This document shows, piece by piece, positions 1,633-5,737 of a DNA stretch of 5,737 bases; position 1 is the stretch's first letter; each line of letters begins with the position of its first letter. A program made the position numbers and the translations under genes. The stretch lies in NCBI GenBank assembly GCA_030616165.1, contig JAUWXV010000231.1:1-5737 (forward strand), given 5' to 3'. Below the pieces are notes generated by a model. The model saw only the letters and a program-made list of their open reading frames with translations, ran no database searches and was not told where the DNA came from. Origin of the DNA: a bacterium (GTDB lineage: Bacteria; SM23-31; JAUVVT01).

Positions 1633-1655
1633 AATAAAAACACAGGTTTTCAACA
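1633..1655 (+). promoter_or_regulatory. Shared 23-nt leader element, copy 1 (before exported amidohydrolase)
   Basis: This copy of the shared leader ends exactly at the base before ATG 1656. It matches copy 3 at 20 of 23 positions and copy 2 at 18 of 23. The core is ATAAAAACACAGGTTTTC. The Shine-Dalgarno part is AGGT, one base weaker than the GAGGT of the other copies because of a G-to-C change, with eight bases to the ATG. AAAAC (1637-1641) and GTTTT (1646-1650) form a small stem around loop ACAG. Confidence 0.7.
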
Positions 1656-3008
1656 ATGAAAAAGTCATTTGTATTTTTCCTGTTATCAGCATTTCTGGCT
1701 ATTATTTATGTACAAGGCTGTGGCAAAAAACAACCTGAATCACTTATTGTACTGCGTGGAGCAACCATCATAGACTGCACAGGTGCGCCTGCCCAAGCAA
1801 ACATGACAGTGGTGATTAAAGGCAACCACATTTATACACTTGGCAAGACAGACAAAGTGGAAGTGGCTAAAAACATACAGGTAGTGGATGCAACAGATAA
1901 GTACTTAATACCGGGATTGTGGGATATGCACGTTCACACTGGCGAAAAAGACACATTTTTCCCACTATATATAGCGAATGGAATTACTGGTATTCGTGAT
2001 ATGGGCGGCGATCTAGTAAGGGCTACTGGTAACGCCTCACTGAGTTTAGACAGCCTTAACAAATGGAAAGAAGAGATAAAACGGGGAACGCTGGTAGGAC
2101 CGAGAATCGTGGCAACTGGACCAATCATTGATGGCCCGAAACCGTTTTGGCCAGGTGTGACGACTCCAGTTGGAAGCGAAGCTGAAGCTCGTGATTTAGT
2201 AAAAGCCTTAAAATATAGAGGTGCTGATTTTATAAAAGTATACGAAACACTTCCTCGAGAAATATACTATGCAATTGCGGATGAATCAAAGAAAAATCAA
2301 CTACCATTTGCAGGTCATGTTCCTAAATCGATTACAGCAGCCGAAGTATCAAATGCTGGTCAAATAAGTATTGAACATCTCGATGGAATTTATAATAGTA
2401 ACTCTGGAAACTCTTTATCTGACCTTTACACATTATTTCGATCTAATGGTACTTGGCAGATTCCTACGCTTGCTGCATATCGAGACCTTGTGAGAAATGA
2501 TGACAGCTTTCGTAATGATTATAGACTCAAATATATACCAGAATATATCAAAGAAATTTGGAGCCGATCATCGTGGTGGCATACTTCACGTACAGAAAAA
2601 GATATTGCAAAAGGGAAAGAGGAATTCCGAATACGTCTCAAGATAGTAAAGGAAATGCACGAATCAGGGATTAATATTTTAGCTGGATCGGATGCTGCCA
2701 ATCCATATACTTATCCTGGATTCAGTTTACATGATGAACTTAAATACATGGTTGAAGCAGGCTTAACATCGCAGGAAGCTATACAAACAGCTACACTTAA
2801 TCCAGCAAAGTTTTTGGGTATGCAAGATTCACTTGGAACTATTGAGGAAGGTAAAATCGCAAACCTGGTATTGCTCGATGCCGATCCTCTCCAAGATATC
2901 ACTAACACACAAAAAATCAACGCTGTAATACTCAGCGGCAAATACCTGCCGAAAAAGATGTTACAAAAAATGCTAGCTGACGTTGAAGCTGCTGCTATGT
3001 ACAAATAA
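1656..3008 (+). CDS. Exported amidohydrolase-family lipoprotein (imidazolonepropionase/prolidase-like)
   Basis: This 450-residue metal-dependent hydrolase belongs to the amidohydrolase family (PF01979), in the branch of imidazolonepropionase-like and Xaa-Pro/Xaa-Arg dipeptidase enzymes. Residues 1-22 are a lipoprotein signal: MKKS, a hydrophobic stretch, then VQGC with C22 as lipid-attachment site. A small beta domain (GATIIDCTG, about 35-43) precedes the barrel. Metal-site residues are HxH at H92/H94 in LIPGLWDMHVHTG, K194 in ADFIKVYE as the candidate carbamylated lysine, H221 in AGHVPKS, H241 in IEHLDG and D346 in LAGSDAANPY. The C-terminus carries the usual TLNPAKFLG and GTIEEGKIANLVLLDADP pattern closing the beta domain. 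All expected catalytic residues are present, so it should be active on the periplasmic side of a membrane, perhaps on a peptide or lactam-like bond; the substrate is unknown. ATG 1656 is set by the shared leader and signal peptide. GC content, roughly 40%, is above that of the reductase gene downstream. Confidence 0.93.
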   Translation: MKKSFVFFLLSAFLAIIYVQGCGKKQPESLIVLRGATIIDCTGAPAQANMTVVIKGNHIYTLGKTDKVEVAKNIQVVDATDKYLIPGLWDMHVHTGEKDTFFPLYIANGITGIRDMGGDLVRATGNASLSLDSLNKWKEEIKRGTLVGPRIVATGPIIDGPKPFWPGVTTPVGSEAEARDLVKALKYRGADFIKVYETLPREIYYAIADESKKNQLPFAGHVPKSITAAEVSNAGQISIEHLDGIYNSNSGNSLSDLYTLFRSNGTWQIPTLAAYRDLVRNDDSFRNDYRLKYIPEYIKEIWSRSSWWHTSRTEKDIAKGKEEFRIRLKIVKEMHESGINILAGSDAANPYTYPGFSLHDELKYMVEAGLTSQEAIQTATLNPAKFLGMQDSLGTIEEGKIANLVLLDADPLQDITNTQKINAVILSGKYLPKKMLQKMLADVEAAAMYK

Positions 3009-3024
3009 AAGAGTAATGATTGTT

Positions 3025-3040
3025 ATTAAATAAGTTTAAT
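3025..3040 (+). repeat. Small A/T inverted repeat between the amidohydrolase and MBL genes
   Basis: ATTAAA (3025-3030) and TTTAAT (3035-3040) form a perfect 6-bp inverted repeat around TAAG. It is too weak to be an intrinsic terminator and has no following T tract. The 59-bp gap between the two genes therefore shows no barrier to co-transcription. It ends four bases before leader copy 2. Confidence 0.3.
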
Positions 3041-3044
3041 GTAC

Positions 3045-3067
3045 GATAAAAACAGAGGTTTCCTAAA
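3045..3067 (+). promoter_or_regulatory. Shared 23-nt leader element, copy 2 (before MBL-fold hydrolase)
   Basis: This copy ends immediately before ATG 3068 and matches copy 3 at 20 of 23 positions. The core is ATAAAAACAGAGGTTTCC. The Shine-Dalgarno GAGGT lies eight bases from the ATG. AAAC (3050-3053) pairs with GTTT (3058-3061) around loop AGAG; the fifth pair is lost to the TTTC variant. As the gene lies only 59 bp downstream of its neighbour, the element is present inside a probable operon and not only at its head, which argues for a translational or post-transcriptional role. Confidence 0.7.
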
Positions 3068-3985
3068 ATGAAAAAATATAATAGAAGAAAATTTTTGGGA
3101 TTAGCCACAGCCGGATTAGCAATATTAGCTGGTTGTGGAAAATCCGGAGATGAAACCTTAGTTGATAAAATTACAGGCAAAAACCAGATTCTGAATCTCT
3201 ATGACAACATTACCAGAGATGCCGGCGAGGCAATCTCAGATTGGGGATTTTCTGCTTTTATTCGATACAGCGGAAAGACCATACTCTTTGATGCAGGTAC
3301 GCACCCGGGTATCCTGGAGCATAATACAAAGATGCTTGGTGCAGATCTCACGACGGTTGACATCGCCGTCCTTTCTCATAATCATTCTGATCACATTGGT
3401 GGATTCGACTATCTTCTGAAGGTAAATCCGGATTTCAAACTGTTTTTGCCGAACGATGTGAACATTGGTGGGAAAGCTGAATTTTATGCTGATATGGATA
3501 GAAAATATCCGCGCGGCTACCGGTATCGTCATCCGAACACTGAGTTCGTCACGGAACATACCGAAATTGCGCCAGGTGTTGTTCTCATCGCTACGACTTC
3601 GCCGTTGGCAGGCAGTTTCTGGAAGTATCCACCATATGAGAATGAAACTCGGTTTAATGAAATGCCGGAACTTTCCCTTGCTCTGGAAGGCGAAGATGGG
3701 CAGGTTAGCCTTATTTCTGGATGCTCCCATTCTAAAATCGAAGAGATAATTAAGGAAACAAAAAAATATCTTGGAAAAAATGTCTTACTTGTTATTGGAG
3801 GTTTTCATCAATCTCCTTATTCCTCTGACTATATTACGAATATAGCGAAAATGATGAAAGATGAACTGGGAGTGAGGCATGTTGCTCCCACGCATTGCAC
3901 AGGTGAAGAAGCTATAAAAATCTTCAAAGACATTTACAAAGAAAATTTCCACTATTTTGGTCTTGGTTCAAGATTGTCGCTGTAG
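3068..3985 (+). CDS. Tat/lipobox metallo-beta-lactamase-fold hydrolase, COG1237-like
   Basis: This 305-residue protein has the metallo-beta-lactamase fold. Residues 6-10 (RRKFL, preceded by N) form a twin-arginine motif, followed by a hydrophobic stretch and a lipobox LAGC with C23, so it is probably exported folded by Tat and lipid-anchored. The active-site signature is SHNHSDHIGG (H104, H106, D108, H109). Further ligands are H221 in SGCSHSKIEEI, H247 in GGFHQSP and H276 in APTHCTGEEA. The trio GCSH, GGFH and THCTG identifies the COG1237 group, related to the archaeal dihydropterin ribofuranosylaminobenzene phosphate synthase-like enzymes. Most of those are cytoplasmic, so the pterin reaction should not be assumed here. 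By hand count its central part (3181-3720) is about 46% GC while both ends are near 34-35%, a mosaic unlike its neighbours. A long open frame on the opposite strand reflects this GC-rich core and is not a gene. Confidence 0.93.
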   Translation: MKKYNRRKFLGLATAGLAILAGCGKSGDETLVDKITGKNQILNLYDNITRDAGEAISDWGFSAFIRYSGKTILFDAGTHPGILEHNTKMLGADLTTVDIAVLSHNHSDHIGGFDYLLKVNPDFKLFLPNDVNIGGKAEFYADMDRKYPRGYRYRHPNTEFVTEHTEIAPGVVLIATTSPLAGSFWKYPPYENETRFNEMPELSLALEGEDGQVSLISGCSHSKIEEIIKETKKYLGKNVLLVIGGFHQSPYSSDYITNIAKMMKDELGVRHVAPTHCTGEEAIKIFKDIYKENFHYFGLGSRLSL

Positions 3986-4037
3986 AAAATTAAAGAAACT
4001 TTGTTTAGTTTTCAAGAAAAGAAGCTGATAAAATGGA

Positions 4038-4065
4038 TTGAAAGCCATTGCAGTAAGAATAGCAT
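4038..4065 (+). promoter_or_regulatory. Weak sigma70-like promoter candidate before the reductase gene
   Basis: TTGAAA (4038-4043, 5 of 6) and TAGCAT (4060-4065, 4 of 6) are spaced by 16 bp in the 136-bp gap upstream of the aldo/keto reductase. The gap is wider than the 59 bp between the first two plus-strand genes, so an extra promoter is plausible. No terminator is visible, so read-through from upstream is equally possible. Confidence 0.2.
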
Positions 4066-4098
4066 AAAGTAAGATAAAATAATTCAAAAAAATTTTTT

Positions 4099-4121
4099 AA
4101 TAAAAACAGAGGTTTTCGAAA
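4099..4121 (+). promoter_or_regulatory. Shared 23-nt leader element, copy 3 (before aldo/keto reductase)
   Basis: This copy ends immediately before ATG 4122 and is closest to the consensus. The core is ATAAAAACAGAGGTTTTC. GAGGT is eight bases from the ATG. AAAAC (4103-4107) and GTTTT (4112-4116) form a 5-bp stem with AGAG as the loop, placing part of the Shine-Dalgarno in the loop. A 12-bp A6T6 palindrome (4087-4098) abuts its 5' end. Confidence 0.7.
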
Positions 4122-5429
4122 ATGAGCTTAAAAAAATTAATAAAAATAAGCAGGAGAGAATTTTTAAAGAAAGCAAAAACTATCTTTGCGGGTGTTGCTG
4201 TTTTTGCATCAGGTAAAGATACAATAATAAAAAACTTTTTTGTAAACAGACTTCCTCAGGGAGATAAGGTCAAGATAAAGAGTTATCGCAACCTTGGCAA
4301 TACAGGATTTAAAGTTTCTGATATAAGTTTCGGAGCGGCTCATATTACTGATGGGGCGGTGGTGAGATATGCAGTTGACTGCGGAGTTAATTATATTGAT
4401 ACCGCTCCTATTTATGGACAGTCGGAAAGATTAATTGGGGAAGTGTTAAAGGAAAAGAGAAAAGAGGTATTTATTGCAACAAAGTTCAACCAGAGAGCGT
4501 GGCGGGCTAAAAATTCAGAAGAACTTAAAAAAAATTTTAAAGAATCACTCGAAAGAAGTCTGAAAAACTTGAGAACCGATTATGTGGACGCTCTCCTTAT
4601 ACATTCTGCTTCGGAAAGTAGAATGAAGAGTGAGGAAATGCACGAGGTTTTTGAAAAGGCAAAAAAGGAGGGAAAGGTAAAATATTCAGGTGCCAGTTTT
4701 CATTCTTCCGGAATGGGTAATATTGTTAAACAATTTTTTAATTATGATTCGATGAAAATCCTTACACCTGCTTATAATTATTTAAATAATAAGGATGTTA
4801 ATGAAGATATAAAGAGTTTATCCGAAAAAGGGAAAGCAATTGTTGCGATGAAGGTAAGAATGGGAGCGTATCTTGAAAGACTTCCCGGGTGGGATAAACA
4901 GCCCCTTGGTGAGGATTTTGAAAGTCTTTCGCTAAATCAAAAGAGAAGCAGAATGATAAGATTTGTTGATGATAGTAATAATAAATTTACTATGGATTTT
5001 AATAGGAGTACATTTAAATGGGTTCTTTCTAATCCACATGTCAGCACTTTGATTCCAAGTTTCAGGACATTCTATGATGTCGATACTTTTTTGCCTGCCT
5101 CAGGGGAAAAATTCGGTTATCGAGATAAAGAAAATTTAGACAATTACATTGCTCTTGTCTGGAATCAATACTGCAGAATAGGATGCGATTTATGCCATTC
5201 GTATTGCCCGAAAAGTGTTCCGGTTAATGATATTTTGAGATTTCAGATGTATTATGAAAATTATGGTGATAGGAGAATGGCTGTTAATGAATATTCAGAC
5301 TTGCCGAAAAACAAATTGGGAGATAACTGTTCCGATTGTGATGCACCATGTCAAAAATACTGCCCGTATGGTATTGCAATCAAGGAAAGATTAATCCAAT
5401 CACATAAGACACTATCATTAAATTGTTAA
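4122..5429 (+). CDS. Tat-targeted aldo/keto reductase with C-terminal double iron-sulfur domain
   Basis: This 435-residue protein begins with a Tat signal: SRREFLKKA at residues 10-18, then a short hydrophobic run to about residue 30. There is no lipobox. The aldo/keto reductase barrel spans about 54-330 and has the full catalytic tetrad: D93 and Y98 in YIDTAPIYG, K121 in IATKFN and H161 in ALLIHSAS. VSTLIPSF (about 307-314) corresponds to the late nicotinamide-phosphate binding region. The C-terminal part carries two four-cysteine motifs: C351-x3-C355-x2-C358-x3-C362-P and C403-x2-C406-x3-C410-x3-C414-P, typical of aldo/keto reductases fused to a double [4Fe-4S] domain. Export in folded form fits the Tat signal, since both cofactor types are loaded in the cytoplasm. 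It probably passes electrons between an organic carbonyl/alcohol or sugar-like substrate and an iron-sulfur relay; substrate and partner are unknown. It is the last gene of the plus-strand set. Confidence 0.93.
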   Translation: MSLKKLIKISRREFLKKAKTIFAGVAVFASGKDTIIKNFFVNRLPQGDKVKIKSYRNLGNTGFKVSDISFGAAHITDGAVVRYAVDCGVNYIDTAPIYGQSERLIGEVLKEKRKEVFIATKFNQRAWRAKNSEELKKNFKESLERSLKNLRTDYVDALLIHSASESRMKSEEMHEVFEKAKKEGKVKYSGASFHSSGMGNIVKQFFNYDSMKILTPAYNYLNNKDVNEDIKSLSEKGKAIVAMKVRMGAYLERLPGWDKQPLGEDFESLSLNQKRSRMIRFVDDSNNKFTMDFNRSTFKWVLSNPHVSTLIPSFRTFYDVDTFLPASGEKFGYRDKENLDNYIALVWNQYCRIGCDLCHSYCPKSVPVNDILRFQMYYENYGDRRMAVNEYSDLPKNKLGDNCSDCDAPCQKYCPYGIAIKERLIQSHKTLSLNC

Positions 5430-5640: not shown

Positions 5641-5737
5641 ATTTGACTGGAGTTAAGCATTTTTTTAATGAGAAAATAAAAAAAGTTCCTTAATTCTTAT
5701 ATTTGTATAATTTTCAAAAATATGTTAACGGACAGAA

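Follow-up and report, generated by a model that had tools for sequence, protein, structure and literature searches.

A repeated 18-nt leader at the start codons of three unrelated, neighbouring genes in an uncultured bacterium

In the cluster K mycobacteriophages, a 13-bp repeat called the start-associated sequence (SAS) lies over the Shine-Dalgarno (SD) sequence of genes that belong to different families, typically 3-7 bp upstream of the initiation codon (PMC3203893). The SAS consensus, GGGATAGGAGCCC, is conserved beyond the SD, and its outer bases are symmetric in the pattern GGG-N7-CCC; 11-19 copies are found across a phage genome and are kept between related phages, and roughly half of these sites are accompanied by a 17-bp inverted repeat upstream (PMC3203893; PMC11373665). 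The function of SAS is unproven (PMC3203893; PMC11373665).

The bacterial locus described here lies in a window of 5,737 nt, by which we mean the whole stretch of DNA analysed; it is the entire contig C256 of a 3.74-Mb draft genome in 343 contigs from an uncultured bacterium. Three consecutive genes are found on its plus strand. Gene 1 (1656-3008) encodes a 450-aa amidohydrolase (Amidohydro_1, E 3.7e-30) with a lipoprotein-type signal, MKKSFVFFLLSAFLAIIYVQGC; gene 2 (3068-3985) a 305-aa hydrolase of the metallo-beta-lactamase fold (Lactamase_B_2, E 5e-10) with an N-terminal RR motif and an LAGC lipobox; and gene 3 (4122-5429) a 435-aa aldo/keto reductase (E 2e-36) with an N-terminal, Tat-like SRREFLKK motif and C-terminal Cys clusters of the 4Fe-4S type. 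The products are non-homologous members of three different families, and all three are predicted, from reading of the sequence, to carry export signals: a lipobox in the first, an RR motif together with a lipobox in the second, and an RR motif in the third. No phage genes were seen in the 5.7-kb window, where the genes are for bacterial metabolic enzymes; this reading covered the window contig and its probable neighbour. An AT-rich stretch of 540 nt (1093-1633) separates the divergent genes, and its sole open reading frame, of 70 aa, has no family match.

The leaders of the three genes (1633-1655, 3045-3067 and 4099-4121) each end just before an ATG and, compared without gaps, match at 18/23 positions for genes 1 and 2 and at 20/23 for both genes 1 and 3 and genes 2 and 3, as an earlier note on this DNA had claimed. 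The conserved block proper can be narrowed to positions -22 to -5, with pairwise identities of 16/18, 17/18 and 17/18. Its 18-nt consensus, ATAAAAACAGAGGTTTTC, ends 4 nt 5' of the ATG in all three genes, and the copies in the window differ from it at no more than one position. Copy 1 (1634-1651, plus strand; ATAAAAACACAGGTTTTC) has a G to C change inside the SD, copy 2 (3046-3063, plus strand; ATAAAAACAGAGGTTTCC) has a T to C change that also breaks the outer pair of a dyad discussed below, and copy 3 (4100-4117, plus strand) is the consensus itself without mismatch. The limits of the block are sharp. Likeness is near chance from -4 to -1 and from -40 to -24; the 17 nt directly 5' of the block agree at 5-9 positions, the highest value (9/17) being a slight extra likeness between the leaders of genes 1 and 3. 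Farther upstream the identity is 9-16/40, with the whole region from -120 to -24 near chance, and the first 30 nt of the three coding sequences agree at 9-15 positions, again near chance. That the likeness ends at the leader, together with the lack of homology among the proteins, upholds the claim that gene duplication is not the cause. The two minus-strand genes lack the element, also as claimed: one starts with a GTG at 1092 preceded by GGAGG, the other with an ATG at 286 and no clear SD.

The leader repeat is real. A search of the window with ATAAAAACAGAGGTTTTC at up to three mismatches returned exactly three sites, against an average of 0.01 in dinucleotide shuffles (n=200), and when triples of real leaders were resampled from the same genome, none in 2 million had all three pairs above 16/23. 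An assembly artefact is an unlikely source, as the repeats are of 18 nt with differing flanks and lie far below the contig overlaps seen in this assembly (43-141 nt).

The genome at large was searched in two ways. An iterative weight-matrix procedure picked 877 predicted gene starts from 1.33 Mb, so that base-by-base reading covered about 36% of the genome. The start consensus obtained is a weak A-rich leader followed by GGAGG, G-richness peaking between -11 and -8, and A-rich leaders with GAGG-type SDs are common. Apart from the window genes, none of the roughly 874 starts in this sample has the core within three mismatches. The whole 3.74-Mb assembly contains 27 sites at up to three mismatches, compared with 31 for a reversed control pattern; core matches other than the three window copies are thus not in excess, and none of the matches elsewhere precedes a convincing gene start in the way the window copies do. 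A match with one mismatch at C149:6576 (L002 1501-1575) adjoins a CGTTCCCAAACAGAGTTTGGGAACGAGAATGAG repeat and is not 5' of a gene, and one with 1-2 mismatches at C234:4360 lies upstream of a -35 box and is not placed like the window copies. The gene-associated element is confined to one locus, where all copies lie within 2.5 kb.

Shared leaders do occur at other genes of this genome. All other leader pairs in the sample that agree at 20/23 or more belong to homologous, duplicated genes. C222 carries tandem paralogues of this kind and C204 kinase-like genes; further near-identical genes occur on C44, C67 and C222. At L201 (C222), for instance, the Tat-type tandem paralogues at 7003 and 8288 are 76% identical and their 23-nt leaders are identical. 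Among non-homologous neighbouring pairs (n=1889), only the window attains 20/23. Weaker pairs, at 18/23 or less, are compatible with chance likeness of A-rich sequence. On C171, two non-homologous minus-strand neighbours (L058, 716 and 2697) have a common leader at 18/23 (AAAATAGAAAGGAG...), which may be either a lesser instance of the same phenomenon or chance.

Outside this genome, the exact core followed by an ATG 2-5 nt downstream was found in 0 of 385 other genomes. For comparison with relatives there was a single genome from the same family, along with four others from the class; the loci read in these have no comparable start, and the orthologous gene cluster was not found in the relatives searched. 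For gene 1 the species collection yielded a single relative, an Acidobacteriota homologue with 45% identity, and this is without the leader. Viral contigs gave one core match before an ATG, on a phage-like contig, which by a rough estimate is about what chance would give for a collection of that size. In the plasmid collection the sole match was a short one that falls within the gene 2 coding sequence, and Rfam had no credible match to the leader.

At its 3' end the window shares 75 bases (5663-5737) exactly with the end of contig C208, and because of this terminal identity C208, read on its minus strand, probably follows the window contig. Exact terminal overlaps of a similar kind are seen at other contigs of the assembly. 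The sequence past the 75-nt overlap opens with a GGACAGAACG...CCTGCACACTGTG repeat, which probably caused the contig to break off there. On C208 the gene order after the window is a lipoprotein gene, the product of which we take from its sequence to resemble the endonuclease/exonuclease/phosphatase family, followed by a gene 3 paralogue. This paralogue is 83% identical to gene 3 in protein and 85% in DNA; its leader, CATTAATTTTGTATGGAGGGACT, is without the element, and the two genes have no common leader and little likeness in the first 120 nt. Neither export nor membership of the reductase family, therefore, predicts the leader. A 116-nt identical run between gene 3 (window 4700-4820) and the paralogue (L119), in genes otherwise about 85% alike, suggests recent gene conversion active at the locus.

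What, then, is conserved in the three leaders? Pairing with the SD is ordinary: the predicted energies are -3.7, -7.0 and -7.0 kcal/mol against a genome median of -5.8, with a standard anti-SD assumed because no 16S was found. Strong SD pairing is thus not the conserved property, and conservation runs past the SD on both sides. The block spans a ribosome footprint, that is, the SD and the expected 30S contact area. It contains a dyad, AAAAC-N4-GTTTT, with perfect 5-bp arms in copies 1 and 3 and the outer pair broken in copy 2. The dyad folds weakly, with a 5-bp stem of -0.9 kcal/mol, and a hairpin that sequesters the SD was rejected since the stem is too weak and is interrupted in copy 2. As for candidate factors, Hfq was not detected in the genome, and a search of the window and C208 for antisense partners gave nothing that outdid shuffled sequence, except the leaders' own opposite strand.

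The explanation we prefer, at somewhat less than even confidence, is a locus-specific recognition element at the translation initiation of the three exported proteins. It starts from what is observed: a repeat in exact register with the ATG, sharply bounded, confined to one locus and not part of the start consensus of the genome at large. From there we infer action in RNA, binding of a factor, and an effect in one direction or the other. The leaders would be copies of one 18-nt start-associated element in the mRNA, placed over the SDs of neighbouring exported-enzyme genes; most likely, a trans-acting factor, either an RNA-binding protein or a small RNA, would recognise AGAGG jointly with the two arms that flank it, one A-rich and the other UUUUC, and would raise or lower the access of ribosomes at all three starts, so that the three genes could respond together despite their separate start regions. 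The identical 4-nt register in unrelated genes and the common limits favour such an element, as does conservation on both sides of an SD whose pairing is ordinary. The lack of any other non-homologous neighbour pair at 20/23 counts for it too, and we have also counted the export signals on all three proteins and the published SAS with the same geometry (PMC3203893). Against it stand the three copies at one locus, since a regulon element would usually recur elsewhere, as well as the weak dyad broken in copy 2, the undetected Hfq, the missing CsrA core GGA, the missing antisense partner, and the orthologous locus that was not found. The shared regulatory or initiation element proposed in the earlier note is accordingly possible and unproven, and its "set of genes" holds only as three neighbours at one locus.

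Nearly as likely as a recognition element is the local copying of an SD-bearing segment of about 20-35 nt, which would have spread between the neighbours by microhomology or gene conversion and been kept for translation, without a common regulator. The one-locus restriction favours it: all copies lie within 2.5 kb and are found at starts nowhere else. Gene 3 and its paralogue, alike in DNA and not in leader, indicate that leaders have been exchanged or lost here; the 116-nt run suggests gene conversion at work in the vicinity, and the slight added likeness 5' of the block between copies 1 and 3 points the same way. However, independent tracts are not expected to share both limits as well as a 4-nt distance to three unrelated ATGs, and the other leaders at 20/23 or more in the sample all travel with homologous coding sequence, with no equally strong non-homologous case. 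The earlier note had taken absence of the motif from other genes and orthologues as a sign of coincidence or local duplication; the genome scan gave no further copy placed before a gene, and the 385 genomes no exact one before an ATG. Coincidence is refuted by the resampled triples of leaders, and the one-locus confinement leaves the copying of a short leader as a serious rival.

A DNA operator, in which the AAAAC-N4-GTTTT dyad is bound by a transcription factor and promoters close upstream give very short 5' UTRs, is less likely, and we regard it as improbable. The perfect arms in copies 1 and 3 and the AT-rich region would suit it, but the dyad is short and damaged in copy 2, and the exact register with the ATG is not needed for an operator. 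Nor are promoter-like hexamers spaced alike relative to the three blocks, upstream of which likeness is near chance; for the promoter element that the earlier note raised as an alternative, a placement at fixed distance upstream is therefore not supported. Far less probable still is a generic start consensus, either lineage-wide or of a donor lineage. A-rich leaders and GAGG-type SDs are indeed common in this genome, but the 877-start sample and the whole-assembly scan show that the motif does not precede most genes, and for the sampled part of the genome the lineage-wide consensus is refuted; the 385 other genomes speak against it as well, and the close paralogue of gene 3 within this genome means that the gene does not have the look of a recent import. 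Chance resemblance of A-rich leaders is refuted and has a negligible claim: although unrelated leader pairs attain 18/23 at about 1e-4 in this genome, here all pairs of three consecutive genes reach at least 18, and simulated or resampled triples did not exceed 16 in 2 million.

Should the element be regulatory, unrelated neighbouring genes of bacteria could share an initiation signal longer than the SD, as reported in some phages, and the locus would be a small, three-gene test case. Should the leader have been copied, it would illustrate cleanly how ribosome-binding sites can pass from gene to gene while the coding sequence stays behind.

Compared with known systems, the leaders resemble those of co-duplicated paralogues (such as on C222 and C204) in being near-identical within one genome; the proteins are homologous there and non-homologous here. 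The CsrA/RsmA system likewise has an SD-overlapping binding site on several mRNAs, and CsrA is encoded in this genome. A CsrA site needs GGA, which is absent from all three leaders, where GAGGT or CAGGT is found instead. Of the known systems, the mycobacteriophage SAS comes closest; the leader resembles it in anatomy without being a member. The consensus is GGGATAGGAGCCC in the phages and ATAAAAACAGAGGTTTTC here; 11-19 copies phage-wide stand against three at one bacterial locus, and conservation in related phages against 385 other genomes in none of which an exact copy stands before a start; nothing here is comparable to the upstream 17-bp inverted repeat of phage sites. The likeness lies in a short asymmetric repeat over the SD, here 4 nt before the ATG of three gene families, in conservation that extends past the SD on either side, and in the symmetric outer bases, GGG-N7-CCC in the phage and AAAAC-N4-GTTTT here. 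It is possible, if doubtful, that the leaders are a cellular counterpart of the phage SAS, that is, a dedicated initiation element that would couple the exported-enzyme cluster and be read by a putative RNA-binding factor.
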